A DNA stretch of 64,000 bases from Limibacillus halophilus. GTDB lineage: Bacteria > Pseudomonadota > Alphaproteobacteria > Kiloniellales > CECT-8803. The notes beneath the pieces were generated by a model. That model worked only from the letters and a program-made list of their open reading frames with translations, did not search any database and was not told where the DNA came from. A program made the translations under genes and the position numbers. Shown piece by piece: positions 26,660 to 39,974 of this stretch (within the stretch, counting starts at the first letter, position 1; each line of letters starts with the position of its first letter). The DNA lies in assembly GCF_014191775.1 (NCBI RefSeq), contig NZ_JACHXA010000001.1, positions 496,001 through 560,000 of the forward strand, written 5' to 3'.

Positions 26660-27460
26660 TCAGGCAGTGGCCCCCGCAGTTGATTGCTTCTTGGCCCTAG
26701 CCGGTTTCGGGGTCCGTGAAACCTTACGCAGATCGGTCCGCAGGTGCTTGGTGCTGTAGCCGTTGAAGATATGGCCAAGCAGCCCTCGGTTCAGATCAGA
26801 GGTGCCGAACAACCAGTCTGAGATCGGGAAGGTCAGGTTCATATTCCGCTCCATCATGATGGCTTGGTTGTGATGGGCGGTATGATGGCGCCGGAGCGTG
26901 TTCACAAAGGGACAGTAGCGGACAAACCAGCTCTCTTCGACATGGCAGCAGAAATGCATGAACTCATAGGTCAGGTACATGCCCGTCGTCGTGCACATGA
27001 TCAGCCAGCCGACGTTTGCCGAAACCAGATATCCCATGACGGCGGAAGGCGGGATCGACATCAGGATGAAGACCGCCAAAGCAAAAGGTGGGAAAAAGGT
27101 GACACGCCAGTCCTTCTGGTCGGCAAACCGCATCTCGGACTCAGTAAAGAACTGATGGTGCTGCAGAGTGTGGCGATTGTAGATCGCTCTGAGACCTTTC
27201 CAGCGCAGCGGCCGGTGCATCACATAGCGGTGCAGGAACCATTCGAAGATATTGGTGATCATAAAGACCACGGGGATTGTAAGCCACTCCCACCACTGCA
27301 CATTTCCGATGTGGGCAGTATAGAGATAGATGGCGGTGAGGCCGATCACATAGATGATCACCACGTGCAGCCAGCCATTGTACCAGCCGGCGATCCGACG
27401 GCGATACTCCGAACGGTAGTTGCGCTGACGCTCGTCCATCGGGCTTTGGCTGAGTTCCAT
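26660..27460 (-). CDS. Fatty acid hydroxylase/sterol desaturase superfamily membrane protein
   Basis: 266-aa integral membrane di-iron oxygenase-like protein. Histidine clusters HRYVMH, HTLQHHQF and RRHHTAHHN are in the order expected for the superfamily. Hydrophobic segments include VVIIYVIGLTAIYLYT, IPVVFMITNIFEWF and FALAVFILMSIPPSAV. A GAGGAG ribosome site precedes the ATG at 27460. The substrate cannot be assigned. A TGATATATCA palindrome lies 30 nt upstream. Confidence 0.85.
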   Translation of the reverse strand: MELSQSPMDERQRNYRSEYRRRIAGWYNGWLHVVIIYVIGLTAIYLYTAHIGNVQWWEWLTIPVVFMITNIFEWFLHRYVMHRPLRWKGLRAIYNRHTLQHHQFFTESEMRFADQKDWRVTFFPPFALAVFILMSIPPSAVMGYLVSANVGWLIMCTTTGMYLTYEFMHFCCHVEESWFVRYCPFVNTLRRHHTAHHNQAIMMERNMNLTFPISDWLFGTSDLNRGLLGHIFNGYSTKHLRTDLRKVSRTPKPARAKKQSTAGATA

Positions 27461-27490: not shown

Positions 27491-27502
27491 CTGATATATC
27501 AG
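27491..27502. promoter_or_regulatory. GntR-type palindrome CTGATATATCAG
   Basis: Perfect 12-bp palindrome 30 nt upstream of the membrane hydroxylase start, inside the 109-nt gap after the end of the cysteine-dioxygenase-like gene. Near-copies lie at 32480 and 34235 in promoters of the same strand. FCD-type GntR regulators commonly bind such short AT-centred dyads, and one is encoded at 32618. Confidence 0.6.
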
Positions 27503-27569: not shown

Positions 27570-28151
27570 TCAACCCCAAAGATTGGGAACCACGTTCGAA
27601 GCGTACCCGGAAACAAATGGTTTCTCAGCCCCGGTCTGGGGATCGAAGACGCGGCGGCGGACGGCGCCGATGTTTGCGCCATAGAGGTGAATCGAGATCG
27701 AAACCCGGTCCTCATACGCATTCGAAACCGCATGAATGTCGCCGAGGCTGGGACGGAGTATTTCGATATCGCCGGGTTCCAGGCGGCGGCGCTCGCCTTT
27801 CTCCAATGCTTGACCGCGTTGACTATAGGCCTGGGAGAACTCGGCCCCGCGCAGCATGCCTACCAACCCCCAGACGCCGTGGTCATGTATCGGCGTACGC
27901 TGTCCGGGCCCCCAAACAAAACTTACGAGGGAGAACCGCTCCAACGGATCGCAGTGCAGCAGATATTGCTGGTAATATTTCGGGTGAGGCTTGGCGAAGG
28001 CGTCACCCAACCAGTCATCCTCCGAAATCAGAGCGGCCAGGTGGCCACGGGCGGCGTCGATCAATGCTTCCTCGTCATCCGCAAGCCGATCGACGGCTCC
28101 CGTCATCCCGATAATGAAGGACCGCAGTCTGCCAAGATTCTGAGGCGCCAT
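27570..28151 (-). CDS. Cysteine dioxygenase family protein (thiol dioxygenase)
   Basis: 193-aa cupin. The iron-binding histidines are in TPIHDHGVWGLVG (HxH) and GDIHAVSNAYEDRVSISIHLYG (third His), as in cysteine and 3-mercaptopropionate dioxygenases, which oxidise a thiol to the sulfinate with O2. It lies 6 nt downstream of the PhyH-family gene and is the last gene of the TRAP operon. This suggests a thiol or sulfur-containing compound in the pathway. The exact substrate is unknown. Confidence 0.83.
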   Translation of the reverse strand: MAPQNLGRLRSFIIGMTGAVDRLADDEEALIDAARGHLAALISEDDWLGDAFAKPHPKYYQQYLLHCDPLERFSLVSFVWGPGQRTPIHDHGVWGLVGMLRGAEFSQAYSQRGQALEKGERRRLEPGDIEILRPSLGDIHAVSNAYEDRVSISIHLYGANIGAVRRRVFDPQTGAEKPFVSGYASNVVPNLWG

Positions 28152-28157
28152 CTTACT

Positions 28158-29057
28158 CTACTCCGCTGCGGGCATTCCGGCTTTCTGCTGTAAATCGAAA
28201 ATCGATGTGTAGCCGCCGCTCCAGTCGGGCGGAATAAGGAAGCGACCCTCTTCATGGTGCGCCCATTTCGCGGGTACGCCACGAATCAGCTGCTGTTCAT
28301 ACTTCGAGTGCAGGGGATTGTGCGTGTAGGGAACAGCATCGGCGGCGGACATGACATTGAGCAGAAGGGGTCGTCCAATGTCCGACTGATTTGCCTTTGA
28401 GCCATGAACGGTACGGTAGTTGTGTAGCGTTATCGATCCGGCAGGGCCGCAAAGATACTGCGCAGTACCGACCGGCACCGAGGGCAGGTCTTCCGGCTGA
28501 ATGTCGCCGGTCCAAACGCCCTTGGTGTTGTAATGGTCGTAGATCGGATTCTTGTGACTTCCGGGAATGACACCCAGCGGCCCCTGTTCCATGCCGCAGT
28601 CGTATATATAGGTGCCGCAGGTCAAGACGGCATTATTCGTGTGCGGAAAGAAAGGCACATCCTGGTGCCATTTGACCTCGGAACCGCCTTTGGCCCATTT
28701 GAAGTTGAGCTTTGACTGATAGAACTTCACATCCGGGCCCAGCAGGTCAGCCAGCAGATCGCCAATCCGGGATTCTACCAGGAACTGCCAGAATACAGGA
28801 TCCTGGTCGCAAGGTGAGGACACCCGGCGCAATCGCGGATCGTCGCTTCTGTGATTGGGCTCAAGATCAAAGACGCTGTCCGACTGCGTTACCTTGCGGC
28901 TCAGTTCAACCTGCCGGTCGATGGCATCGCGCAGCTTTTTCAGCCAGATTCTGTCCACGAATTCCTCAACCAGCAGATACCCCTGTTCAAAGTAGAACTC
29001 GCGCTGTTTTTGGCTCAAAACGCGTGGGGCTTGGGAAAGGATCTCATCCGGCGTCAT
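28158..29057 (-). CDS. Phytanoyl-CoA dioxygenase (PhyH) family protein
   Basis: 299-aa Fe(II)/2-oxoglutarate-dependent oxygenase-like protein. The iron-binding HxD is in VKWHQDVPFF, and the distal His with 2-oxoglutarate-binding Arg is in HNYRTVHGSKANQSDIGRPLL. PGSHKNPIYDHY is a family-typical loop. It is encoded between the TRAP permease and the thiol dioxygenase in one minus-strand operon, so it is probably a catabolic hydroxylase acting on the imported compound or a derivative. Confidence 0.87.
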   Translation of the reverse strand: MTPDEILSQAPRVLSQKQREFYFEQGYLLVEEFVDRIWLKKLRDAIDRQVELSRKVTQSDSVFDLEPNHRSDDPRLRRVSSPCDQDPVFWQFLVESRIGDLLADLLGPDVKFYQSKLNFKWAKGGSEVKWHQDVPFFPHTNNAVLTCGTYIYDCGMEQGPLGVIPGSHKNPIYDHYNTKGVWTGDIQPEDLPSVPVGTAQYLCGPAGSITLHNYRTVHGSKANQSDIGRPLLLNVMSAADAVPYTHNPLHSKYEQQLIRGVPAKWAHHEEGRFLIPPDWSGGYTSIFDLQQKAGMPAAE

Positions 29058-29112: not shown

Positions 29113-30426
29113 TCAACGGAAGCCAAGTACCTGCTCCGGCAGCCACAAGGCCGTTTCCGGGAACATCATTACAATCAGCAGAGCCACCATCTGGATCGCC
29201 AGGAAGGGGACCACGCCCACGTACATATGCCGCAAGGTCATCTCCGGTGGTGCTATACCGCGCAGGTAGAAAATGGCCGGCGCCATCGGCGGTGTCAGGT
29301 AGCTGGTTTGGATCATGATCAGAATGAGCATGCAGAACCAGACCGGATCGAACCCTGCGTCGCGGATGAAGGGCATGAACAGCGGCACGAAGATCAACAG
29401 GATCGATATCCATTCCAGGAAGAACCCGGCAACGAAGACCAGCAGCAGGAAGATAATCAGCAGACCCCATGGGCCCAAACTGATCGCGTCGAGCAGATCG
29501 CGCATGATCGACATCCCGCCGCTGCCAGCATAAACACCGGTGAAGATACTGCCGCCCAGGAGGATCAGCATGATCATTGAGGTGACGGTCAGCGTCTTGA
29601 CCAAGGCTTCGCTGAAAGTCTGCAGCGTGAACTTGCCATAGGCAATCGTCAGGACGATGGCGCCAGCAGCGCCCAGCGCTGCCGCTTCGGTTGGGGCTGC
29701 CCAACCGAGCATGATCGACCCCAGCACGGCGAAGATCATGAAGAGCGGTGGGACCAGCGCCTTGACCGTAACCACCAGCTTCTCACCTAAAGGCATCAGC
29801 GGCTCGTCATCATCGACACGAGGCGCCGCCGTTGGACTGAAGGTGCAAAGCAGGATGATGTACACGATATAGAGTCCCGACAGGATCAAGCCTGGAAAGA
29901 TCATGCCGACCATGAGATCGCCGATCGAAACGTTGGCAATCGGTCCCAATACGACCACGACCACTGACGGCGGAATAATCGTGCCCAGTGATCCGCCCGC
30001 GCAGATCGTGCCGCTAATGAGGGATTTGCTGTAGTTGAGGCGCATCATTGAGGGGATGGCAAGGAGTCCGACTACGGTCTCCGTCGCACCGATGACACCG
30101 GTCGAGGCGGCAAAGATGATGCACATAATCACCGTACCGACAGCGACGCCGCCTGGCAGCCGGCGGGTCCAAAGGTGCACTGCGTGGAACAGCTTCTCGG
30201 CAATGCCGGAGCGCTCCAGCATGGCGCCCATGAAAACGAACAAGGGGACCGCCGCAAGGATGAAGTTGCTGGCTACATCCTCGATCTTCTGCATGAACTG
30301 AAAGAAAGCCGCGTCGCCGAAGGTATAGTAACCAAAGACGAAGGCCACGGACATGAGCGCGAAGGCGACCGGGAACCCCAGGAAAATCAGCAGGAAGAGC
30401 GCCGGGAACATCAACAAGGCTTCCAT
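29113..30426 (-). CDS. dctM: TRAP transporter large permease subunit
   Basis: 437-aa DctM-type membrane protein with about twelve hydrophobic segments. Recognisable regions are LFLLIFLGFPVAFALMSVAF, GAMLERSGIAEKLFHAV, GGSLGTIIPPSVVVVVLGPIA and LTPPMAPAIFYLRGIAP. It forms the ion-driven import channel with the small subunit at 30430. The gap to the small-subunit gene is only 3 nt. Confidence 0.93.
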   Translation of the reverse strand: MEALLMFPALFLLIFLGFPVAFALMSVAFVFGYYTFGDAAFFQFMQKIEDVASNFILAAVPLFVFMGAMLERSGIAEKLFHAVHLWTRRLPGGVAVGTVIMCIIFAASTGVIGATETVVGLLAIPSMMRLNYSKSLISGTICAGGSLGTIIPPSVVVVVLGPIANVSIGDLMVGMIFPGLILSGLYIVYIILLCTFSPTAAPRVDDDEPLMPLGEKLVVTVKALVPPLFMIFAVLGSIMLGWAAPTEAAALGAAGAIVLTIAYGKFTLQTFSEALVKTLTVTSMIMLILLGGSIFTGVYAGSGGMSIMRDLLDAISLGPWGLLIIFLLLVFVAGFFLEWISILLIFVPLFMPFIRDAGFDPVWFCMLILIMIQTSYLTPPMAPAIFYLRGIAPPEMTLRHMYVGVVPFLAIQMVALLIVMMFPETALWLPEQVLGFR

Positions 30427-30429
30427 GTC

Positions 30430-30948
30430 TTAGGCCTCCTCCGCCTGATCATCGGCGTGGCGGAGTGTCATCACGCACTTCAAAATTTCTGCAATAGTTT
30501 GGACGGTAAGTAGCGCGATGGCGCTGGAGATCATGATGCGGAACGGCCAGATCACGGGGTTCCAGGCCGACTGGCCGGTGCGCTCGCCGCTCACGAAGGA
30601 ATCAAAGGCATAGCTGAGCATCCAATAGGACACGATCGTTAAAAACGGCAGCAGAAAAATCACGTAGAAGAAAAGATCGATCGTCGCCTTTGTCTTGGGT
30701 TTGAAGTTTCCATAGAGCACATCAATGCGAATGTGCCCGCCACGCTGCAGCGTCAGTGCCGCGCCCAGCAGGAAGTGAACACCCATCACGGAGTAACCAA
30801 GCTCAAACGCCCAGATCGTTGGCGAGCCGAAGGCGTAGCGAGCAAAGACTTCGTAGCAGGTTGCCAGTATCAGTGGGACAATGAGGACCGACGCGGCGTA
30901 GCCGATTCCTACCGTCAACTTTTCGAGCGCGGTGACAATGCGTTTCAT
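30430..30948 (-). CDS. dctQ: TRAP transporter small permease subunit
   Basis: 172-aa DctQ-type protein with four hydrophobic segments. VFARYAFGSPTIWAFELGYS and LGAALTLQRGGHIRIDVLYG are the family core. It is followed by the large subunit and preceded by the binding-protein gene with a 92-nt gap that holds a strong hairpin. Confidence 0.92.
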   Translation of the reverse strand: MKRIVTALEKLTVGIGYAASVLIVPLILATCYEVFARYAFGSPTIWAFELGYSVMGVHFLLGAALTLQRGGHIRIDVLYGNFKPKTKATIDLFFYVIFLLPFLTIVSYWMLSYAFDSFVSGERTGQSAWNPVIWPFRIMISSAIALLTVQTIAEILKCVMTLRHADDQAEEA

Positions 30949-31040: not shown

Positions 31041-32096
31041 CTACTCGGTCTTCACGTTGCGGTACCGATTGGCGTCTTTCCACAGATCAGCAAAAGCCTT
31101 CTGATGGTCTAGAACCTTGCGGAACCATTCGTTTCCCTCTGCCTGCTTCTCGGCCCAGGCGATACCGGCATTGTGTGCAGCGATTTGCACTTCGGCATCG
31201 AGTTCGACGATCTCGTTGCCTTCCTGGCGATAAACCTCCAGGGCCTTGGCATCTTCCTGGCCGATGGTCAGCCAGCTGTTCATCGTCGTATAGAAGGCCG
31301 CGTCACTGATAAGTTTCTGATCAGCTTCCGACAGTTTGGCCCAGGAGTCCTTGTTGACCACCAGCTCGAACGGCGCAGTCGGCTGATGCACACCCGGGAT
31401 GATCACGTATTTTGTCACCCGGTAGAATCCAGGAGAAAGGTTCTCCCAGAGCGTGCCCCATTCGGTCGCATCGATGGTGCCGCGCTCAAGAGCCGGATAC
31501 ACGTCACCGCCCGGCATGGTGACCGGTGCGGCGCCCATGGACTGGGAGATATCCAACCATGCGCCAGCGGTACGAAGCTTCAGCCCTTGCAGGTCCTCAA
31601 GCGTGCGAACGGGCTTGCGGGAATGCAAGAACACTTCGGAGGTGCGAATGAAGAGCGGCATGGCGACCAGGCCGAACTGTTCATCGCGCCACTGGGCGTG
31701 CAGTTCGGCGCCGCCTGCACGATAGAGCCAGTGCAGCATCCGCTCGCTGTCGAAGCTGCCGGCGTACCCGCCAAACAACACTGCCGTCGTGTCCGCGCCC
31801 CAGTCGTAACCGACCCAGGTATGGCCCATATCGGCAACGCCGTTCTTCACGGTCTCGGAGACTTTCAGGCCCGGGCCCAAGGTGCCTGACGGAAAGACTT
31901 CGATCTCAATGCGTCCACCGGAGGTTTCCTTAACCCGGTCGGCGAAGGCCTGAGCGCCAATGTCGGTCAGTGGTCCGCCGCTCCAAGCGGTGGCCATTTT
32001 AAACTTGTGCTCTTGGGCGTTGGCCAGACCCGTGACCGCAAGGGTCACGGCCAGTGCCGCGCCGGCAAGCACGCGTGGTGCAAAATGTTTCAACAT
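31041..32096 (-). CDS. dctP: TRAP transporter substrate-binding protein
   Basis: 351-aa periplasmic DctP-type protein. The Sec signal peptide is residues 1 to about 28 (hydrophobic core then LANA-Q). FKMATAWSGGP, FPSGTLGPGLKVSETVKNGVADMGHTW and the conserved ligand-carboxylate Arg region LKLRTAGAWLDIS are present. These features suggest an organic acid ligand, as for most TRAP proteins. It is first of the transporter genes and lies 69 nt after the DUF6166 gene on the same strand. Confidence 0.92.
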   Translation of the reverse strand: MLKHFAPRVLAGAALAVTLAVTGLANAQEHKFKMATAWSGGPLTDIGAQAFADRVKETSGGRIEIEVFPSGTLGPGLKVSETVKNGVADMGHTWVGYDWGADTTAVLFGGYAGSFDSERMLHWLYRAGGAELHAQWRDEQFGLVAMPLFIRTSEVFLHSRKPVRTLEDLQGLKLRTAGAWLDISQSMGAAPVTMPGGDVYPALERGTIDATEWGTLWENLSPGFYRVTKYVIIPGVHQPTAPFELVVNKDSWAKLSEADQKLISDAAFYTTMNSWLTIGQEDAKALEVYRQEGNEIVELDAEVQIAAHNAGIAWAEKQAEGNEWFRKVLDHQKAFADLWKDANRYRNVKTE

Positions 32097-32165: not shown

Positions 32166-32453
32166 TTACTCCGGTTCGAGCGCCGACATCACGTCGGCCT
32201 CGGTCATTTCCCAGTCATTCTGGAAATTAGCGACAACCTCCTGCATGAAGGTGTCGTAGTGCTTTAGTGCTGTGGCGTCGCCCGCACAGTCCGCCAGGAT
32301 CGCCAGCGCCAACTGTGCAGGTTCCGGTCCCTCGTAACTCCATTCGAATCCATTTTTGGATATTTGCTTGAGATCGACGCGCTCCTTCAGTGGCTTTCCA
32401 TCCACCGTGACCTGCACGCCATCGATCGTCCGGTCCCCCCTATAGACTTTCAT
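32166..32453 (-). CDS. DUF6166 domain protein
   Basis: 95-aa protein beginning MKVYRGDRTIDGVQVTVDGK, with FEWSYEGPEPAQLALAIL as the family core and a helical C-terminus ending DWEMTEADVMSALE. The ATG at 32453 matches the family start; an in-frame extension to 32504 runs into the promoter palindrome. Function is unknown. It is the first gene of the TRAP operon, directly downstream of a GntR-type site. Confidence 0.75.
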   Translation of the reverse strand: MKVYRGDRTIDGVQVTVDGKPLKERVDLKQISKNGFEWSYEGPEPAQLALAILADCAGDATALKHYDTFMQEVVANFQNDWEMTEADVMSALEPE

Positions 32454-32479
32454 ACTTCTCTCCGACAGGTCATCGACGA

Positions 32480-32491
32480 CTGATATATCTG
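32480..32491. promoter_or_regulatory. GntR-type site upstream of the DUF6166-TRAP operon
   Basis: CTGATATATCTG, one mismatch from the perfect palindrome at 27491. It lies 26 nt upstream of the DUF6166 start in the 164-nt gap 32454-32617 after the gntR gene, where it could control the whole TRAP operon. Confidence 0.6.
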
Positions 32492-32617
32492 GCGTATGGT
32501 ACAAGGCAATACCTGGGTTGGAAAGAGGGTCTTTCGGAGGAAATGATTGTTATTCTCAGGTATAGGGCCCGGGGCGCGAGATTCTCTCTCGCAACTAGCA
32601 ATCTCAGATTGTGTAAG

Positions 32618-33277
32618 TCAATTCCCGGTCCCGAAATCCAAAGTTGCGCGCGTAAACTGCTCGACATAGTCCATCAAGGCGTCGGTTGCCTGAGCTGCGC
32701 CGGCGCTGTCACCTTCACCGACTTTCGTCGCCACGTCGGCATGAAGCCTGGCACATAGGGGCAGATCCGCCACCTCGCGATAATGCGAATACCAAAATCT
32801 CCGGGACATGCCGTGCGTGAGCGACATTGCGCTGTTGATGAACTCATTGCGCGCGGCGTGACAAAGCAGAAGATTGAGTTGCCGGTCATATCGCATGAAC
32901 ATGATGTCATCATTGATGCGGGCCGCTTCGTGCATCCCTTCGGCGATCATCTCAAAAGCCTGCTTCTCCTCGGAAGTGGCGCGCCTGGCCGCTTTTCGTG
33001 CCATCAGGCGCTCGACCTCGCGGCGCAACTCCTGCAAACGAAGCTGCCGGCGAACGTTCAGTTCGCTGACCAGGATGCCGCGGCGCGGCAAAATCAGGAC
33101 CAATCCTTCCCGCGCCAGCCTTTGAAGAGCCTCCCGGATGGGTGTGCGTCCGATGGAAAACTGCTTGGCCAATGCAGACTCGGAAAGAACCGCGCCGGGC
33201 TCCAATCGCAGCATGACGATCTGTTCTTCCAGGAGGCGATAGGCCTTTTGCGTCAGGCTATCGTTTGGAGCCCCCAT
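32618..33277 (-). CDS. GntR-family transcriptional regulator (FCD domain)
   Basis: 219-aa regulator. The winged helix has EQIVMLRLEPGAVLSESALA and IGRTPIREALQRLAREGLV; the all-helical FCD ligand domain follows (LQELRREVERLMARKAA, RYDRQLNLLLCHAARNEFI), with His and Asp residues that often hold a metal and an organic acid. The ATG at 33277 is chosen; a GTG at 33388 would add 37 residues but overlap the panB-like gene by 46 nt. It is probably co-transcribed with that gene. It is the candidate reader of the TGATATATCA sites. Confidence 0.88.
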   Translation of the reverse strand: MGAPNDSLTQKAYRLLEEQIVMLRLEPGAVLSESALAKQFSIGRTPIREALQRLAREGLVLILPRRGILVSELNVRRQLRLQELRREVERLMARKAARRATSEEKQAFEMIAEGMHEAARINDDIMFMRYDRQLNLLLCHAARNEFINSAMSLTHGMSRRFWYSHYREVADLPLCARLHADVATKVGEGDSAGAAQATDALMDYVEQFTRATLDFGTGN

Positions 33278-33342
33278 TCTTTCCAGATCATCGAGCACGC
33301 GTTGGCCAGCGTTCCGAGCGCTGACCGGCGCGTCGTTGCCGC

Positions 33343-34215
33343 TCAAATCTGCTTGCGCTTCTCGACCATGCTCAGGAATTTCTCGCACTCCTCGTCATTC
33401 ACGCCGTAACTGTGTTCTTCATCGGGGAACTGGCCCGCTTTGACCTCTTCAACATAGCGCCGCAGGCCGTCAACCGCTACCTCGGTCAGGTTGGCATACC
33501 GTTTTGTGAACTTGGGTTTGAAATCCGTGAAAACTCCAAGAAGATCGTAGCTCAACAGAATCTGGCCATCAGTGCCCGCGCCCGCGCCAATGCCTATAGT
33601 CGGGATCTCCAATTGCTTGGAAATGATCGTCGCTATCTTGGCGGGAACGGCTTCGAACTCGAGCATGAAACATCCTGCATCCTGGATGGCAAATGCGTCT
33701 TCTAGAATCTTCATGGCTGCGTCAGCCGTTCGGCCTTGAATCTTGAAGCCGCCGAACATGGCGATGGTGTGGGGCGTCAGCCCGATATGCGAGGCCGTTG
33801 GGATACCGGCATCGACCAAGGCTTTCAGGATATGAGCCTGGCTCTTGCCGCCCTGAGGCTTCACGGCATCGCAATCCGCGTCCTGCATGAACCTGCTGGC
33901 GTTGGCCAGTGCGCGATCTACCGTGTTGTAACTTTGATAAGGCATGCACCCCAGTACGAAGGTGTTGGGCGCTCCACGACGTACGGCACCCGCATGCATG
34001 ACCATCATGTCCATGGTTGCCGGGATCGTACTCTTGTGGCCATGGGCCACCATCGCCAGACTGTCACCGACAACGCAGACGTCCGCACCGGCCATCTCGG
34101 CCCAACGCGCGGAGGTATAGTCGGGAACCGATGTGTAAACCATCTTTTCGCCGGTATGTTTAGAGTCGCGGATCTCGGTAATCGTCCGCTTCTTTTTCTC
34201 GGACTCTTGGGACAT
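33343..34215 (-). CDS. PanB-like ketopantoate hydroxymethyltransferase paralog with altered metal site
   Basis: 290-aa TIM-barrel protein clearly related to PanB: VVGDSLAMVAHGH, ASHIGLTPHTIAMFGGFKIQG and PTIGIGAGAGTDGQIL. Compared with E. coli PanB as I remember it, the ligand Asp45 is kept (Asp51 here), but Asp84 is replaced by Cys90 (GCMPYQSY) and Glu114 by Gln121 (VKPQGG). The substrate-site His (His143) and Glu are retained. The metal site change and the GntR/TRAP context argue against the housekeeping pantothenate role. A related aldol or retro-aldol reaction on another 2-keto acid is an inference. Confidence 0.8.
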   Translation of the reverse strand: MSQESEKKKRTITEIRDSKHTGEKMVYTSVPDYTSARWAEMAGADVCVVGDSLAMVAHGHKSTIPATMDMMVMHAGAVRRGAPNTFVLGCMPYQSYNTVDRALANASRFMQDADCDAVKPQGGKSQAHILKALVDAGIPTASHIGLTPHTIAMFGGFKIQGRTADAAMKILEDAFAIQDAGCFMLEFEAVPAKIATIISKQLEIPTIGIGAGAGTDGQILLSYDLLGVFTDFKPKFTKRYANLTEVAVDGLRRYVEEVKAGQFPDEEHSYGVNDEECEKFLSMVEKRKQI

Positions 34216-34234: not shown

Positions 34235-34246
34235 GTGATATACTAG
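34235..34246. promoter_or_regulatory. Degenerate GntR-type site upstream of the panB-like gene
   Basis: GTGATATACTAG, 9 of 12 positions matching CTGATATATCAG, followed by a second TGATAT at 34247-34252. It lies 20-30 nt upstream of the panB-like start. It may serve autoregulation of the panB-like/gntR operon. Confidence 0.4.
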
Positions 34247-34343
34247 TGATATGCATATGGTATGGTCAATGACCGGTCAAGCGAACAGCTTGTGTTTGGT
34301 TCATGAGCGAGACCTCAGTCGAATAATGCTTAAGGCTTGATAC

Positions 34344-34712
34344 ATGGTATTGGGAGTTCTGCCGATTGCGATCTTCACCCTTGGCGTTTTTGCGACGACG
34401 GTGGGTATTGTGCTGGTGGCCGGCTTTTTGCCGGTGTCGGCTATGCCGGAGGGCTGGTGGACACCGTCGCGCTCATTTCTTGTCACCGGCAACGGTATTC
34501 TGATCGTGCTGTTGGTCGGCGGACTATTGCTGTTCGCGATTCAGGAACTTGACTGGGCGACCGCCGTGATTGCTGGCGGGCTCGCTTTGCTTGCGGGGCC
34601 TCCTGGGTTCCAGCAATTGCCCGCGGCGTTACGCAATCGCCCCGTCGGCTTGGTGGCTTTCATGGGGATCGGCTTGGCAGTACTGATGGTGACTGTCGCC
34701 ACGACGATTTGA
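34344..34712 (+). CDS. Small hydrophobic membrane protein, unknown function
   Basis: 122-aa protein, nearly all hydrophobic, with about four predicted membrane segments: PIAIFTLGVFATTVGIVLVA, ILIVLLVGGLLLFAI, WATAVIAGGLALLAG and GLVAFMGIGLAVLMVTVATT. I do not recognise a family. The coding pattern is regular and the frame is open over the full length, but the ribosome site is weak. A second small membrane gene follows after 72 nt with a hairpin between them. Confidence 0.6.
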   Translation: MVLGVLPIAIFTLGVFATTVGIVLVAGFLPVSAMPEGWWTPSRSFLVTGNGILIVLLVGGLLLFAIQELDWATAVIAGGLALLAGPPGFQQLPAALRNRPVGLVAFMGIGLAVLMVTVATTI

Positions 34713-34784: not shown

Positions 34785-34970
34785 ATGCCAGCACATCTAA
34801 AAGCCATGCTGTCGGTTCTGGTGGGAGTCGTGGCGTTGGTTGCCTATTGGTTGGAGGGTCAATCGCCCGAAGGCCCCGCCCCTTGGATCATCCTGGCCCT
34901 GGGAGCCTTCATGATCGTTGCCATGTGGGTTTTCCCCGAAGCCGGCAAGGACAAGGTCAAAAAGCAGTAA
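34785..34970 (+). CDS. Small membrane protein, unknown function
   Basis: 61-aa protein with two predicted membrane helices (AMLSVLVGVVALVAYWL and PWIILALGAFMIVAMWVF) separated by a short Pro/Glu-rich loop and ending in a basic tail. A GGGAGACGAGC ribosome site precedes the ATG. No family recognised. It is convergent with merA. Confidence 0.6.
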   Translation: MPAHLKAMLSVLVGVVALVAYWLEGQSPEGPAPWIILALGAFMIVAMWVFPEAGKDKVKKQ

Positions 34971-35007: not shown

Positions 35008-36399
35008 TTAGCCGGCGCAGCAGGAAAGTTTGGCCACGTCCTTATCGAAAGTCTGCGCCGCGAGCTTCAGTCCTTCAACGGTCGTCAGGTACGGGAAGAT
35101 CATGTCCGCAAGATTTTGCACGGTCATGCCTTGGCGGATCGCTAGCGCCGCGGTTTGAATGCTGTCGCAGCCTTCGGGAGCGAGAATATGCGCCCCCAGC
35201 AAGCGGTCTGTCGTTCGATCGGCTACCAACTTGATCAAGCCGCGTGTGTCGCGTGCTGCGAGTGCGCGCGGCAGGTAGGACAAGGGTAGCACGGATGACT
35301 TGACGGCGTGGCCGCGTTGCCGGGCCTCTGCTTCCGTGAGACCGACACTTGCAATCTGCGGGTCCGTGAAGACCACGGCGGGTACCGCGCTGTCATCGTA
35401 CCGCCGGCCATCTCCGTTCAAGGCGTTTTCCGCCGCTATCTTGGCGCCATGCGCGGCCATGTAGACGAATTGATCCTGGCCGGTCACGTCGCCTGCGGCA
35501 TAGACGTTCCGGCGGCTAGTGCGCATGCAGGAGTCGACCACAATACGCCCGTCGGCTTCTGTGTCGATGCCGGAAACCTCGAGGCCGAGCCCTTCGCTAT
35601 TTGGCCGTCGCCCCGTGGCGACAAGAACCTGCTGGGCATGGTGGGTTGTGGTTTCACCGTCGCTGACGGTCGTCAAGACAACGCCGCCGTTATCCTGAGC
35701 AATGCTTTGATAAGAAAGTCCGGCGTGTACCACAATTCCTTCCTCGCGCAGGTATCCGGTGATGGCATCGCCTATCTCCGGTTCCGTGTCAGGCACAAGC
35801 CGCCGCCGCGTAAAGAGGGTGACACCTACACCGGCACGGGCAAACATCTGGGCCAGTTCGCAACCGATGTACCCACCACCGATCACAAATAGGGATTCGG
35901 GCAGGGTTTGAAGTTCGAGCGCGGTGGTGCTGGTCAGATAGGAAACACCGTCGATTCTCGGAATGGCGGGAATGGCGGCCGCCGCTCCGGTGGCGATGAT
36001 GACCTTGTCCGCAGGCGCTCGTTGACCGTTTACCAGGACACCTTCTCGGTCAAACGTCGCCCTCCCTTCCCGATAGATGAGCTTATCGTAGGCGGGTAAA
36101 AGGTCGGCGTACTTGGCTTGGCGAAGCTGCTCGACAAGGGTGTCCTTCTGCGCCACCAGAGTTTGCCAGTTTTGGAGGCGGGCGGTCGCTTCGATTCCCA
36201 AGAAGCGTGAGGCCTCGTTTGCATGATGCAGCGCTTCCATGGCGCGGATGAGAGCTTTGGACGGCACACAGCCGACATTGACGCAGGTGCCACCGATGGT
36301 CCCCTGGCCGACCAGTGTAACTTCCGCGCCCAGTTCCGCTGCGGTGATGGCTGCAGAGAAGCCTGCTGAACCGGCTCCGATGACAATAAGATCGGTCAT
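35008..36399 (-). CDS. merA: Mercuric reductase
   Basis: 463-aa FAD-dependent pyridine nucleotide-disulfide oxidoreductase that reduces Hg(II) to Hg(0) with NADPH in the cytoplasm. The FAD motif is VIGAGSAGFSAA, the redox-active pair is in GGTCVNVGCVPSK (Cys39, Cys44), and the C-terminal vicinal cysteines (Cys460-Cys461, in LSCCAG) distinguish it from dihydrolipoamide dehydrogenase. The N-terminal mercury-binding HMA domain of many MerA proteins is absent. The ATG at 36399 is 4 nt after the merF stop; a frame extension to 36468 lies within merF. Confidence 0.9.
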   Translation of the reverse strand: MTDLIVIGAGSAGFSAAITAAELGAEVTLVGQGTIGGTCVNVGCVPSKALIRAMEALHHANEASRFLGIEATARLQNWQTLVAQKDTLVEQLRQAKYADLLPAYDKLIYREGRATFDREGVLVNGQRAPADKVIIATGAAAAIPAIPRIDGVSYLTSTTALELQTLPESLFVIGGGYIGCELAQMFARAGVGVTLFTRRRLVPDTEPEIGDAITGYLREEGIVVHAGLSYQSIAQDNGGVVLTTVSDGETTTHHAQQVLVATGRRPNSEGLGLEVSGIDTEADGRIVVDSCMRTSRRNVYAAGDVTGQDQFVYMAAHGAKIAAENALNGDGRRYDDSAVPAVVFTDPQIASVGLTEAEARQRGHAVKSSVLPLSYLPRALAARDTRGLIKLVADRTTDRLLGAHILAPEGCDSIQTAALAIRQGMTVQNLADMIFPYLTTVEGLKLAAQTFDKDVAKLSCCAG

Positions 36400-36403
36400 G
36401 GCT

Positions 36404-36646
36404 TTAGCGGCCATCCGGCTTGTCGGCGCAGACAGAGTCCGGGTGGAACTTCCGACGGTAGAGGGCATAGGCGGTCAACAGCAAGAAGAAGCCCAGTGCC
36501 GGGAACAGAACATAGTCGATCCATCCGAGCCAAGCAGATAGGCCAACCAGGCCGAAAAGCACGACTAACAAGGGTGTGAAGCAGCAAAGGGCGACAATGA
36601 TCGATCCAATCGCACCCGTGCGGAACAGTTTTTCGTCGGATTTCAT
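36404..36646 (-). CDS. merF: Mercury transporter MerF
   Basis: 80-aa membrane protein with two helices. The vicinal Cys pair in VALCCFTPLLVVLFGLVGLS matches the mercury-handling motif of MerF, followed by WIDYVLFPALGFFLLLTAYA. It imports Hg(II) across the inner membrane to MerA. The ATG at 36646 fits family length and lies about 30 nt after the predicted transcription start; an in-frame extension to 36718 would cover the promoter dyad. Only one Cys pair is present; the C-terminal pair of the plasmid-type MerF is reduced to a single Cys (SVCADK). Confidence 0.88.
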   Translation of the reverse strand: MKSDEKLFRTGAIGSIIVALCCFTPLLVVLFGLVGLSAWLGWIDYVLFPALGFFLLLTAYALYRRKFHPDSVCADKPDGR

Positions 36647-36683
36647 AAGACTCAGGGCTCTCCATATGATGGCGGATGGAAGA

Positions 36684-36714
36684 ACCATAACGCCTGTATC
36701 AACTACAGGCTCAA
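36684..36714 (-). promoter_or_regulatory. MerR-type promoter and dyad for merFA
   Basis: On the minus strand TTGAGC (36714-36709), a 19-nt spacer and TATGGT (36689-36684) mirror the elongated spacer of MerR-family promoters. The spacer carries a perfect dyad GCCTGTA-N5-TACAGGC (36692-36710 on the plus strand). No merR gene is seen in the window. The rest of the 108-nt gap to ccoS holds nothing obvious. Confidence 0.7.
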
Positions 36715-36754
36715 GCACTAAATTTTCACGAATTGGTAAAGGGGTTGGACGGCA

Positions 36755-36904
36755 CTATCCGGGCGTGTCCTCGTCCAGAAGGATGCGCGCAGCCGCGCCA
36801 TCTAGATCTTCATATTGACCGCTGCGCAATGACCAGAGGAACGCGCAAAGGGCAACCAGTCCTAAAAGCAACGCAATGGGAATGAGAAAAGTCAGGCTGC
36901 TCAT
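36755..36904 (-). CDS. ccoS: cbb3-type cytochrome oxidase assembly protein CcoS
   Basis: 49-aa protein, MSSLTFLIPIALLLGLVALC then a second short segment WSLRSGQYEDLDGAAARILLD. One membrane helix and the GQYEDLDG motif are diagnostic for CcoS/FixS, which assists cofactor insertion into the oxidase. Start ATG at 36904 overlaps the ccoI stop by 1 nt; an ATG at 36907 is also possible. Confidence 0.9.
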   Translation of the reverse strand: MSSLTFLIPIALLLGLVALCAFLWSLRSGQYEDLDGAAARILLDEDTPG

Positions 36905-39180
36905 CATCCGGTGCTCCGCACGACGTGAAGGTCGTGGCGCGGCCCGACCAGTTGCGGCTCGCCCTTCTTCCTGGCGGTAGTATTGGAGGCTCCCAATCGA
37001 AGGGCATTCACGATAACGAGGAGGGAGGAGACCGACATCGCTAAGGCAGCGACCAACGGCGTGACGTAGCCAGCGACTGCGACGGGAAGCGCCAACGAAT
37101 TGTATAGAATTGCGAGCAGGAAATTCTGTCGAATCAATTGCCGCGCGCGCCGCGCTGTCTCCAATGCGGCGGGAACCGCTTCTAGGCTGTCATGCAGGAA
37201 CACGAAACCCGCGGCGTTTCGACCAATGTCGGCGGCGGATGCCGGCGCCATCGACACCTCGGCGGCGACCAGAGCAGGGGCGTCGTTCAACCCATCGCCG
37301 ATCATCGCGACCTTGTGTCCGGCCTCAGTGAGCGCCACGATATGCGCCAGCTTGGCCTTGGGAAGCATGCCGGATTCGTAGGCGGGAATGCCCAGTGCCT
37401 CCGCGATCGCGCGGACCGACTCTTCGTGATCGCCGGAGAGTATGCCCAGCGCAAGCCCTTCGCGTTGTAGCCGCATCACGGCGTCCTTCGCGCCGGGACG
37501 TAGGCGATCCTGAAAGGCGAAGGTGGCAATGAGCCGCCCGTCTTCGCTCAGAACCGTGCGCCCGAACAAGGTCGCATCCGCGCACGCTGTTAGGGCCCAT
37601 TCGGCCCGGCCAAGCCGGTAGGTGTGGCCCAGCAGACTGGCTTCCATACCCAAGCCCGGTGTCTCTGTCACGTTCTGGGGCGCGTAACCGAAACGTTGTG
37701 CTGGGCTGGTGGCCGCGGCAATAGCCTTTGCCAAGGGATGACTGGAGCGCTCAGCAATGGCTCCGGCTTTGCCGAGAACCTCCGGGCGATAGGCCTCCGG
37801 CGTCAAAAGTGCGGGACGGCCCAATGTGAGAGTTCCGGTCTTGTCGAAGATCACGGTATCAATTCCGGCCAAACGCTCCAGGGCGGTACCGTCTTTTGCC
37901 AGAACGCCCCCATCGAACAGCCGCCTCGCCGCCACGACCTGGACGATGGGCACCGCCAATCCAAGCGCACAGGGGCAGGTGATGATGAGGACGGAAATCG
38001 CTACGCTGACGGCGTTGTGCCAGTCTCCGCTGGTCAGCATCCAGCCGAGGAAAGTCAACAAGGCCGCGGAATGAACAAGGGGGGAGTAAGCTGCCGCGGC
38101 ACGATCGGCAATGCGCCGATAGCGTGCGGCCCCACCTTCGGCCACCTCCATGAGTCTCAGCATCTCGGCGAGAAAGGAATCTTCGGCGCGCGCCGTCACC
38201 TCGACGGTCAGCGCCCCCGTCAGGTTGACCATCCCCGCCTTGAGATACGAACCGCGCTCGACCGGCAGGGCCATACTTTCGCCCGTTGCAATGGATGCAT
38301 CGATATCGGAGCGGCCCTCGACAACCCGGGAATCCAGGCCGACACGGTCGCCGGGGTTGATTCGTAGACGCATGCCGGGAGCAATCTCGCTAATCGGCCG
38401 GTATTCCTGACTGCCGTCGCTCAGCAGCACCGTTGCCCCGCGCGGCGCCAAACGCATCAATCCACGCACCGCGACGCGTGCTTTCTCCCGCATCATGTGA
38501 TCGAGCGTGCGGCCGATCAAAAGGAAGAAGAGAAGTGTCACCGAGGCATCGAAGTAAGCATGCTTGCCGCCGGTCAGGGTGTCATAGAAACTAAGGCCGA
38601 ACGCCAGGGACACGCCGATGGTGATCGGCACGTCCATATTGGTTCGCCGAGCTTTCAGCGCTGTCCAGGCAGAACGGAAAAACACTTGGCCGGAGTAAGC
38701 CAGGACGGGTAAGGCGATGAAGGCGGATACCCAGTGAAACGACTGCCGCGTGGCAGTATCCGCTCCAGACCAGATCGACACAGACAGCAACATGATGTTC
38801 ATTGCGCCGAACCCGGCGACCGCGAGCGCGCGTATCAGGTGCGTCAGTGTTTTGTCTTCGTCCTCCTTTCGGTCTTCATAGAGGTGCGCTGCATAGCCGG
38901 TTTGTCTCAAGGTCTCGATAAACGGCGGTACATTGTTGCCCCGCCACTTGATGCTGACTCGTTTGGTAGACAGGTTGACGCGCGCGTTCTCTACACCCTC
39001 TAGAGCCTTGAGGCCGCCTTCGACCGCGCGAATGCAGGCAGCGCAATGAATGCCCGGAACCGACAGATCGGTCTGTAGCAAACCGCCACCAAGATCATAG
39101 CTGGAAAGACGCAACTCGTCCGACAAGGGAGGGCCGCCCTCGCCTTGCGTCATTGCCGCATTGGGAAGGCAGCAGCTCAT
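36904..39180 (-). CDS. ccoI: Copper-transporting P-type ATPase CcoI/FixI
   Basis: 758-aa P1B-type ATPase that supplies copper to the cbb3 oxidase. An N-terminal HMA domain has the metal site GIHCAACIRAVEGGL (Cys46, Cys49). Membrane segments include the transport motif TCPCALGLAVP. The phosphorylation site is FDKTGTLT and the hinge is GDGLNDAPAL. It starts with a Cys-rich MSCCLP. The ATG at 39180 overlaps the DUF2189 stop as ATGA. It lies in one minus-strand operon with ccoNOQP and ccoS. Confidence 0.93.
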   Translation of the reverse strand: MSCCLPNAAMTQGEGGPPLSDELRLSSYDLGGGLLQTDLSVPGIHCAACIRAVEGGLKALEGVENARVNLSTKRVSIKWRGNNVPPFIETLRQTGYAAHLYEDRKEDEDKTLTHLIRALAVAGFGAMNIMLLSVSIWSGADTATRQSFHWVSAFIALPVLAYSGQVFFRSAWTALKARRTNMDVPITIGVSLAFGLSFYDTLTGGKHAYFDASVTLLFFLLIGRTLDHMMREKARVAVRGLMRLAPRGATVLLSDGSQEYRPISEIAPGMRLRINPGDRVGLDSRVVEGRSDIDASIATGESMALPVERGSYLKAGMVNLTGALTVEVTARAEDSFLAEMLRLMEVAEGGAARYRRIADRAAAAYSPLVHSAALLTFLGWMLTSGDWHNAVSVAISVLIITCPCALGLAVPIVQVVAARRLFDGGVLAKDGTALERLAGIDTVIFDKTGTLTLGRPALLTPEAYRPEVLGKAGAIAERSSHPLAKAIAAATSPAQRFGYAPQNVTETPGLGMEASLLGHTYRLGRAEWALTACADATLFGRTVLSEDGRLIATFAFQDRLRPGAKDAVMRLQREGLALGILSGDHEESVRAIAEALGIPAYESGMLPKAKLAHIVALTEAGHKVAMIGDGLNDAPALVAAEVSMAPASAADIGRNAAGFVFLHDSLEAVPAALETARRARQLIRQNFLLAILYNSLALPVAVAGYVTPLVAALAMSVSSLLVIVNALRLGASNTTARKKGEPQLVGPRHDLHVVRSTG

Positions 39181-39974
39181 TTCATTGCCCGGTATCCATG
39201 CCAGGTCGCGTGCCCCAGGAGCGGAAAGACCAGAATCAGCCCTACTAGTCCAGTCGCCACACTCAGAAGGAAGAGCAGCAGGACGATGGCACCCCAGGCG
39301 ATCATGACCGGGAGGTTGTTCCATACCATGGAAATGCTGGTACCCATCGCGGTGAAGGCATCGGTCCGCTCGTCATAGAGGCGGGGAACGGCGAAAACGC
39401 TGATGGCAAAGGAGAAGGCGGCGAACAAACCACCGATAGCGGTGCCCACGAACAGCATTGCCCAGCCAATCGATGTGGTGAAAAGCATGGCGGCCACATC
39501 ATCCAACCCAGGGAAGGGCCGAAGGCCGAAAAACAGGGCATAAACAATCACCGCAGCCCGAATCCAGGCCAGTATCAATAGGCAGAGAATGGTTCCCGTA
39601 AAAAGTACCTGCGGTCCGGATTTGGCCCGCACCATAATCATCCGCCCCAACCGCACGGGCGCATCGGTTTCGAGCGCGTGGCTCTTTTCATAGAGCCCGA
39701 TTGCCAGCAAGGGCCCGACAACCATGAACCCGGCCAGTGCCGGAAACAGGATGTAATCCATGCCGAGCGCAATGAGCCCCCAGACGATGCCGAGCGATAC
39801 GCCGAATACCGCAACGCCATAGGCCAGACTGGGCAGCGGTTTGTTCCATAGATCGCGCCAGCCGGCGGCCAGCCAGTCAAAAGCCGCCGTCGCGGGTAGG
39901 TTGCGTTGGCGCTGCTGCGCCAAGGGCACCGTGCTGTCTTGGGTGGGGCTATTCGGAGTCGCTGTGTTGCTCAT
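39177..39974 (-). CDS. DUF2189 domain-containing membrane protein
   Basis: 265-aa protein with about six membrane helices. DWLAAGWRDLWNKPLPSLAY and the following long hydrophobic runs (GVAVFGVSLGIVWGLIALG, FPALAGFMVVGPLLAIGLYE), plus VYALFFGLRPFPGL, are typical of DUF2189. It sits in the oxidase operon where ccoG often lies, between the small protein at 39985 and ccoI. A role in oxidase assembly is an inference from position only. Confidence 0.85.
   Translation of the reverse strand: MSNTATPNSPTQDSTVPLAQQRQRNLPATAAFDWLAAGWRDLWNKPLPSLAYGVAVFGVSLGIVWGLIALGMDYILFPALAGFMVVGPLLAIGLYEKSHALETDAPVRLGRMIMVRAKSGPQVLFTGTILCLLILAWIRAAVIVYALFFGLRPFPGLDDVAAMLFTTSIGWAMLFVGTAIGGLFAAFSFAISVFAVPRLYDERTDAFTAMGTSISMVWNNLPVMIAWGAIVLLLFLLSVATGLVGLILVFPLLGHATWHGYRAMK

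Follow-up and report, generated by a model that had tools for sequence, protein, structure and literature searches.

PanBx, a PanB-like protein encoded in a window of 64,000 nucleotides from Limibacillus halophilus, is best read as a neofunctionalised, misannotated PanB paralog belonging to a GntR-linked catabolic regulon. We assign a probability of about 85% to the core of this reading, namely that PanBx represents a separate clade in which two of the canonical Mg ligands have been lost, has an operator-like site in common with genes for TRAP (elsewhere ABC) transporters and oxygenases, and is kept in genomes devoid of panB and panC. Apparently, PanBx is switched on together with genes for uptake and oxidation and not with vitamin genes, and most likely it serves the breakdown of a small organic compound, a job other than that of PanB. 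The panBx gene is the first of a same-strand array, listed below with counts for the 93 loci whose neighbourhoods were analysed by tblastn and a codon-hexamer gene caller.

33343 to 34215, minus strand: PanBx, a PanB-like TIM barrel of 290 aa in which C90 and Q121 replace D84 and E114
32618 to 33388, minus strand: GntR regulator carrying an FCD domain; a start near 33277 is favoured by the coding score; homolog in 70/93 loci
32166 to 32504, minus strand: DUF6166 protein; start probably near 32453; 39/93 loci
31041 to 32096, minus strand: TRAP solute-binding protein DctP (domain scan)
30430 to 30948, minus strand: TRAP small permease DctQ (domain scan)
29113 to 30426, minus strand: TRAP large permease DctM (domain scan)
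28158 to 29057, minus strand: PhyH-family Fe/2-oxoglutarate dioxygenase; 43/93 loci
27570 to 28151, minus strand: thiol dioxygenase, nearest to 3-mercaptopropionate dioxygenase; 6/93 loci
26660 to 27460, minus strand: FA_hydroxylase-family protein (membrane di-iron type); 63/93 loci

Active site and conservation of PanBx

A profile scan matched PanBx over its full length to the Pfam family Pantoate_transf (PF02548) with 8e-95, the score against the panB equivalog model TIGR00222 exceeded the cut-off (277.6 versus 207.55), and solved PanB structures were matched at the sequence level. Structure search with the AlphaFold model (mean pLDDT 80) retrieved PanB first and methylisocitrate lyases next, E. 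coli PanB (1m3u) being 38% identical over 265 columns; the loops at approximately 57-59, 150-155 and 210-236 are poorly modelled, leaving the predicted geometry of the site uncertain. Mg in E. coli PanB is bound by D45, D84 and E114, and the catalytic acid/base is E181. Alignment of the metal-ligand columns clearly demonstrated that D45 is kept as D51 and that D84 and E114 are replaced by C90 and Q121, respectively. S46, K112, H136 and E181 are all kept, as S52, K119, H143 and E188. The alignment thus agrees with the original prediction, which described a full-length PanB-like barrel with C90 and Q121 in place of D84 and E114 and with the equivalents of D45 and H136 retained.

Among 99 close homologs selected at a threshold of 75% identity to PanBx and in fact 82-90% identical (clade X), C90 and Q121 were invariant without exception (99/99), compared to Asp and Glu at both ligand positions in 37/37 other PanBs. 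With so strict a division, neither chance nor sequencing error can account for the exchange, and the Cys/Gln substitution is a trait of the whole PanBx family and not the mark of a broken gene. Likewise, no variation was seen in the catalytic Glu, Lys and His. Its sister, clade Y, carries Ser or Ala at the first changed position and Gln at the second. In a phylogenetic tree X and Y each formed a clade of their own and grouped together outside canonical PanB with 100/100 support, the tree being unrooted, with a long-branched E. coli row and an exclusively alphaproteobacterial canonical sampling. Clades X (Cys/Gln) and Y (Ser or Ala/Gln) offer a natural experiment on what becomes of the PanB/class II aldolase fold after loss of its metal site.

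Homologs 81-90% identical to PanBx were detected in alpha-, beta- and gammaproteobacteria (80 loci kept from genome collections). The carriers include Candidatus Pelagibacter (SAR11), Stella, Tistlia, Fodinicurvata and Hyphomicrobium, many of them metagenome-assembled genomes (MAGs) with uncertain names, and the copy of Methylobacterium nodulans is plasmid-borne. PanBx was present in 7 of 289 alphaproteobacterial genomes (source genome counted), in which identity to PanBx fell into separate bands of at least 84%, 47-53% and at most 45%. The uppermost band corresponds to clade X and the middle one to clade Y. The median identity between the gene and its homologs at codon positions 1, 2 and 3 was 89, 91 and 47%, arguing for strong selection at the protein level. 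Strong constraint is also evident within the cluster, where no other protein is as conserved as PanBx (median identity 85% compared to 49-67% for the others).

The GntR-linked gene cluster and its operator-like site

A GntR gene and a TRAP operon had been proposed to lie near PanBx, and both were confirmed by open reading frames and domain scan. DctP is encoded near PanBx in 57 and DctM in 51 of the 93 loci, and the solved structures nearest to DctP include TTHA0766 (named lactate-binding), SmoM (2hzk) and a 'ketoacid-binding protein'. At some PanBx loci a branched-chain-type ABC transporter takes the place of the TRAP system, and in M. nodulans an MFS transporter adjoins the GntR gene. The commonest enzyme partner of clade X after FA_hydroxylase is PhyH, and the same or a related PhyH is present at clade Y loci. 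MtaA/CmuA-like and corrinoid proteins are encoded at about a dozen loci, a few of which additionally carry a pterin-binding methyltransferase-like protein. Single cases in clade Y comprise a sarcosine oxidase, RACo with pterin proteins, and a Rieske protein with a DmdA-like protein. At the solitary PanBx loci (Hyphomicrobium L093, L094 and L108; L081), neither a transporter nor a demethylase was found nearby. With PhyH left out of the count, demethylases occurred at 12/66 loci compared to 1/20 canonical control loci, a difference that is not significant (p = 0.28) and that was obtained with few, exclusively alphaproteobacterial controls and with loci sharing ancestry, which are not phylogenetically independent. 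A strict mutual replacement of corrinoid modules and PhyH was considered and dropped, as both are present at some loci. Similarly, a 3-mercaptopropionate/DMSP-type sulfur pathway, suggested by the thiol dioxygenase, was set aside since this enzyme occurs in 6/93 loci only.

Divergently from PanBx, two small conserved membrane-like proteins are encoded on the plus strand (34344-34712 and 34806-34970), the larger of which (34344-34712) gave no Pfam match. Relatives of the two are present at 23/93 and 28/93 loci and frequently occupy the corresponding divergent position, sharing the operator region. Further upstream (35008-39324), reading of the sequence indicated a flavin reductase resembling MerA and terminating in CCAG, a small membrane protein resembling MerT/MerC and a P-type ATPase for heavy metals, which probably constitute a metal-resistance group. 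In two Methylibium-labelled MAGs (L045, L046), PanBx is preceded by genes that on sequence reading resemble a malonate decarboxylase operon.

Three operator-like sites are located within the array and upstream of it.

27492 to 27501, no strand assigned: palindrome TGATATATCA, operator-like, upstream of the FA_hydroxylase gene; the sole exact copy in the 3.48-Mb genome
32481 to 32490, no strand assigned: TGATATATCT, a one-mismatch copy upstream of DUF6166-TRAP
34235 to 34254, minus strand: GCATATCACTAGTATATCAC, a tentative degenerate operator upstream of PanBx with ATATCAC repeated at 11-bp spacing

The site GCATATCACTAGTATATCAC sits downstream of TTGACC -35-like boxes. Upstream of PanBx, TGATATA/TATATCA was clearly enriched (49/80 versus 1.2 expected from shuffles). 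Allowing at most one mismatch, 155 TGATATATCA sites were obtained across the loci compared to 14 after mononucleotide shuffling; they precede the genes for FA_hydroxylase (46), PanBx (44), DUF6166 (16), PhyH (14), the ABC binding protein (6), corrinoid proteins (5, at three loci) and DctP (4). Exact matches numbered 23 in 17 PanBx genomes, whereas the reversed pattern gave none. One-mismatch sites are not specific in the source genome (27 versus 12 for the control). The GntR regulator of the cluster presumably binds to this operator-like site. Copies elsewhere in PanBx genomes pointed to no consistent additional pathway gene, and some belong to other GntR genes. At one locus (L207, 4426-6174), TGGTATATCA and TGATATATCA are located between another GntR gene and a dihydrodipicolinate synthase-like gene; the motif may therefore be shared by related GntR regulators. 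The conserved site defines a directly testable regulon for a catabolic pathway of oligotrophs including SAR11.

Possible chemistry of PanBx

PanBx would act as the product of the first gene in a GntR-linked array for uptake and catabolism. Since the acid/base Glu (E188), His143, Lys119, Asp51 and Ser52 are kept, its substrate is probably still an enolisable 2-oxo acid or a comparable carboxylate. With the usual Asp/Asp/Glu Mg site gone, the protein would bind either no metal or a softer one held by D51 and C90. Formaldehyde or CH2-H4F might be released by PhyH, by the membrane hydroxylase or, elsewhere, by corrinoid, Rieske or sarcosine-oxidase demethylases, and PanBx would capture this one-carbon unit on an acceptor; alternatively, it would act in reverse and release a hydroxymethyl group that the hydroxylase had formed. 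We prefer this one-carbon role, as the enzymes of the cluster are oxygenases or, elsewhere, demethylases, but it is a weaker inference than the catabolic assignment and taken as a whole has somewhat less than an even chance of being correct. The operator-like site is found in front of PhyH and some corrinoid genes, but the reaction of PhyH need not be a demethylation and the enrichment of other demethylases was not significant. A bolder suggestion, which we consider doubtful, is that X and Y together constitute a new family of hydroxymethyl transferases or lyases that are linked to folate or formaldehyde, depend little or not at all on a metal, and channel the methyl carbon of an environmental compound into one-carbon metabolism. 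If true, a GntR-linked TRAP/PhyH regulon would give oligotrophs including SAR11 access to a source of methyl carbon.

The main rival makes the idea of the original prediction concrete. The TRAP system would import a 2-oxo or 2-hydroxy acid, which either PhyH or the membrane hydroxylase would convert into a 4-hydroxy-2-oxo acid. As a retro-aldolase or lyase, PanBx would then cleave this product, yielding a 2-oxo acid of smaller size together with an aldehyde bigger than formaldehyde. PanB can act as a metal-dependent aldolase that accepts numerous aldehydes and 2-oxo acids (review PMC7610986), and in line with such a reaction DctP most closely resembles binders of 2-oxo and hydroxy acids, PhyH and FA_hydroxylase co-occur with PanBx, and E188, K119 and H143 are retained. 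Nevertheless, class II aldolases normally require the metal site that is changed in PanBx, and several loci contain corrinoid methyltransferase-type genes instead of PhyH, which makes this chemistry unlikely, though a serious contender. Of the catabolic aldolase or lyase with changed chemistry that had originally been put forward, the catabolic direction is supported by the GntR/TRAP cluster found across classes, the shared site and the retention of PanBx without panC; the aldolase or lyase chemistry stays a proposal.

We regard it as improbable that PanBx is a class II enzyme that binds a softer metal (Zn, Fe, Co) via C90 and transfers a hydroxymethyl group to a different 2-oxo acid in biosynthesis. 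The invariance of C90 in clade X would fit such a site; however, Ser or Ala occupies this position in clade Y, whose neighbours are similar in kind, and through the operator-like site PanBx is linked with uptake genes. Even less probable is a catalytically weak or dead protein that has become a ligand-binding sensor or scaffold of the operon. Two of the three metal ligands are indeed lost and PanBx directly precedes the regulator gene, but a protein more conserved than any other of its cluster, with invariant catalytic Glu, Lys and His, argues against such a role. Returning to the preferred one-carbon role, it is favoured by the frequent partner PhyH, by the MtaA/CmuA-like and corrinoid proteins, and by the DmdA-like, Rieske, RACo/pterin or sarcosine oxidase neighbours of clade Y, whereas the solitary loci count against it.

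Pantothenate synthesis and known PanB-like systems

A search of the source genome for a second, canonical panB beside panC had been suggested as a check. A second PanB with all ligands present is indeed encoded on contig C6, but panC lies on contig C9 with no panB adjoining. A changed function of PanBx depended on the existence of such another panB, and the canonical copy consequently favours it. This canonical PanB (G000:C6:147899-148624, L003) is long-branched within canonical PanB, and according to sequence reading its gene adjoins genes resembling those for a B12-dependent acyl-CoA mutase and a crotonyl-CoA reductase, not panC.

Across PanBx loci, panC was not detected within approximately 8 kb at any of 58, compared to 14 of 20 canonical panB loci. 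Moreover, 5 of 18 PanBx genomes lack panC, and in four of these five (G006, G013, G018 and G207, two of them isolates) canonical panB is absent as well. Two genomes of one genus (G128, G301), both represented by fragmented assemblies, contain panC and PanBx without an intact canonical PanB, and a residual PanB role may therefore persist in this genus. That PanBx in general still makes ketopantoate, as a genuine PanB whose metal site is unusual, is very improbable, as the TIGR00222 score and the two genomes just mentioned speak for it, whereas the canonical PanB of the source genome, the retention of PanBx in genomes without panC and canonical panB, the lack of panC near any PanBx locus, the operator-like site in common with catabolic genes, and the failure of a metal-less Rhizobium etli paralog to complement panB (PMC3082293) all speak against it. 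The current equivalog model labels a widespread, strongly conserved protein as a vitamin enzyme, and the resulting false panB calls could mislead the prediction of prototrophy, for example in Fodinicurvata and Stella, in which no panC was found.

PanBx resembles PanB (EC 2.1.2.11; PF02548; E. coli 1m3u) in fold, length, the catalytic Glu, His and Lys and the first Asp; it differs by the replacement of two ligands (Cys and Gln), its separate clade, the GntR/TRAP cluster, its consistent separation from panC and its retention in genomes without panC. The 2-methylisocitrate lyase or isocitrate lyase/PEP mutase superfamily, which performs enolate-type chemistry, shares a related TIM-barrel fold according to structure search, but is only 12-17% identical and has other active-site loops. 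In open-access papers searched for PanB paralogs with TRAP, PhyH or corrinoid genes, no description of the PanBx clade and its regulon was found.

Divergent PanB paralogs not serving pantothenate synthesis are nevertheless already known, as a plasmid-borne panB paralog of R. etli lacks a detectable metal-binding domain, and a panB mutant of this organism was auxotrophic despite the paralog, whose expression gave no complementation (PMC3082293). This protein, RHE_PE00443, carries P, G, Y and A in the columns of D45, D84, K112 and E114, and its relatedness and residue pattern give no indication that it belongs to the PanBx clade. Among the main active-site positions checked in its gene (L143 18818-19633, R. 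etli p42e), only Ser46, His136 and Glu181 are kept, and its neighbours encode a MocE-type ferredoxin, a desaturase and an FAD oxidoreductase. RHE_PE00443 is possibly a second demethylation-linked offshoot of PanB. Like PanBx, it has conserved His and Glu at their positions, has lost metal ligands and adjoins oxidative genes; unlike PanBx, to which it is only about 32% identical, it additionally lacks D45, K112 and a loop, and it is accompanied by other neighbours and another regulator.
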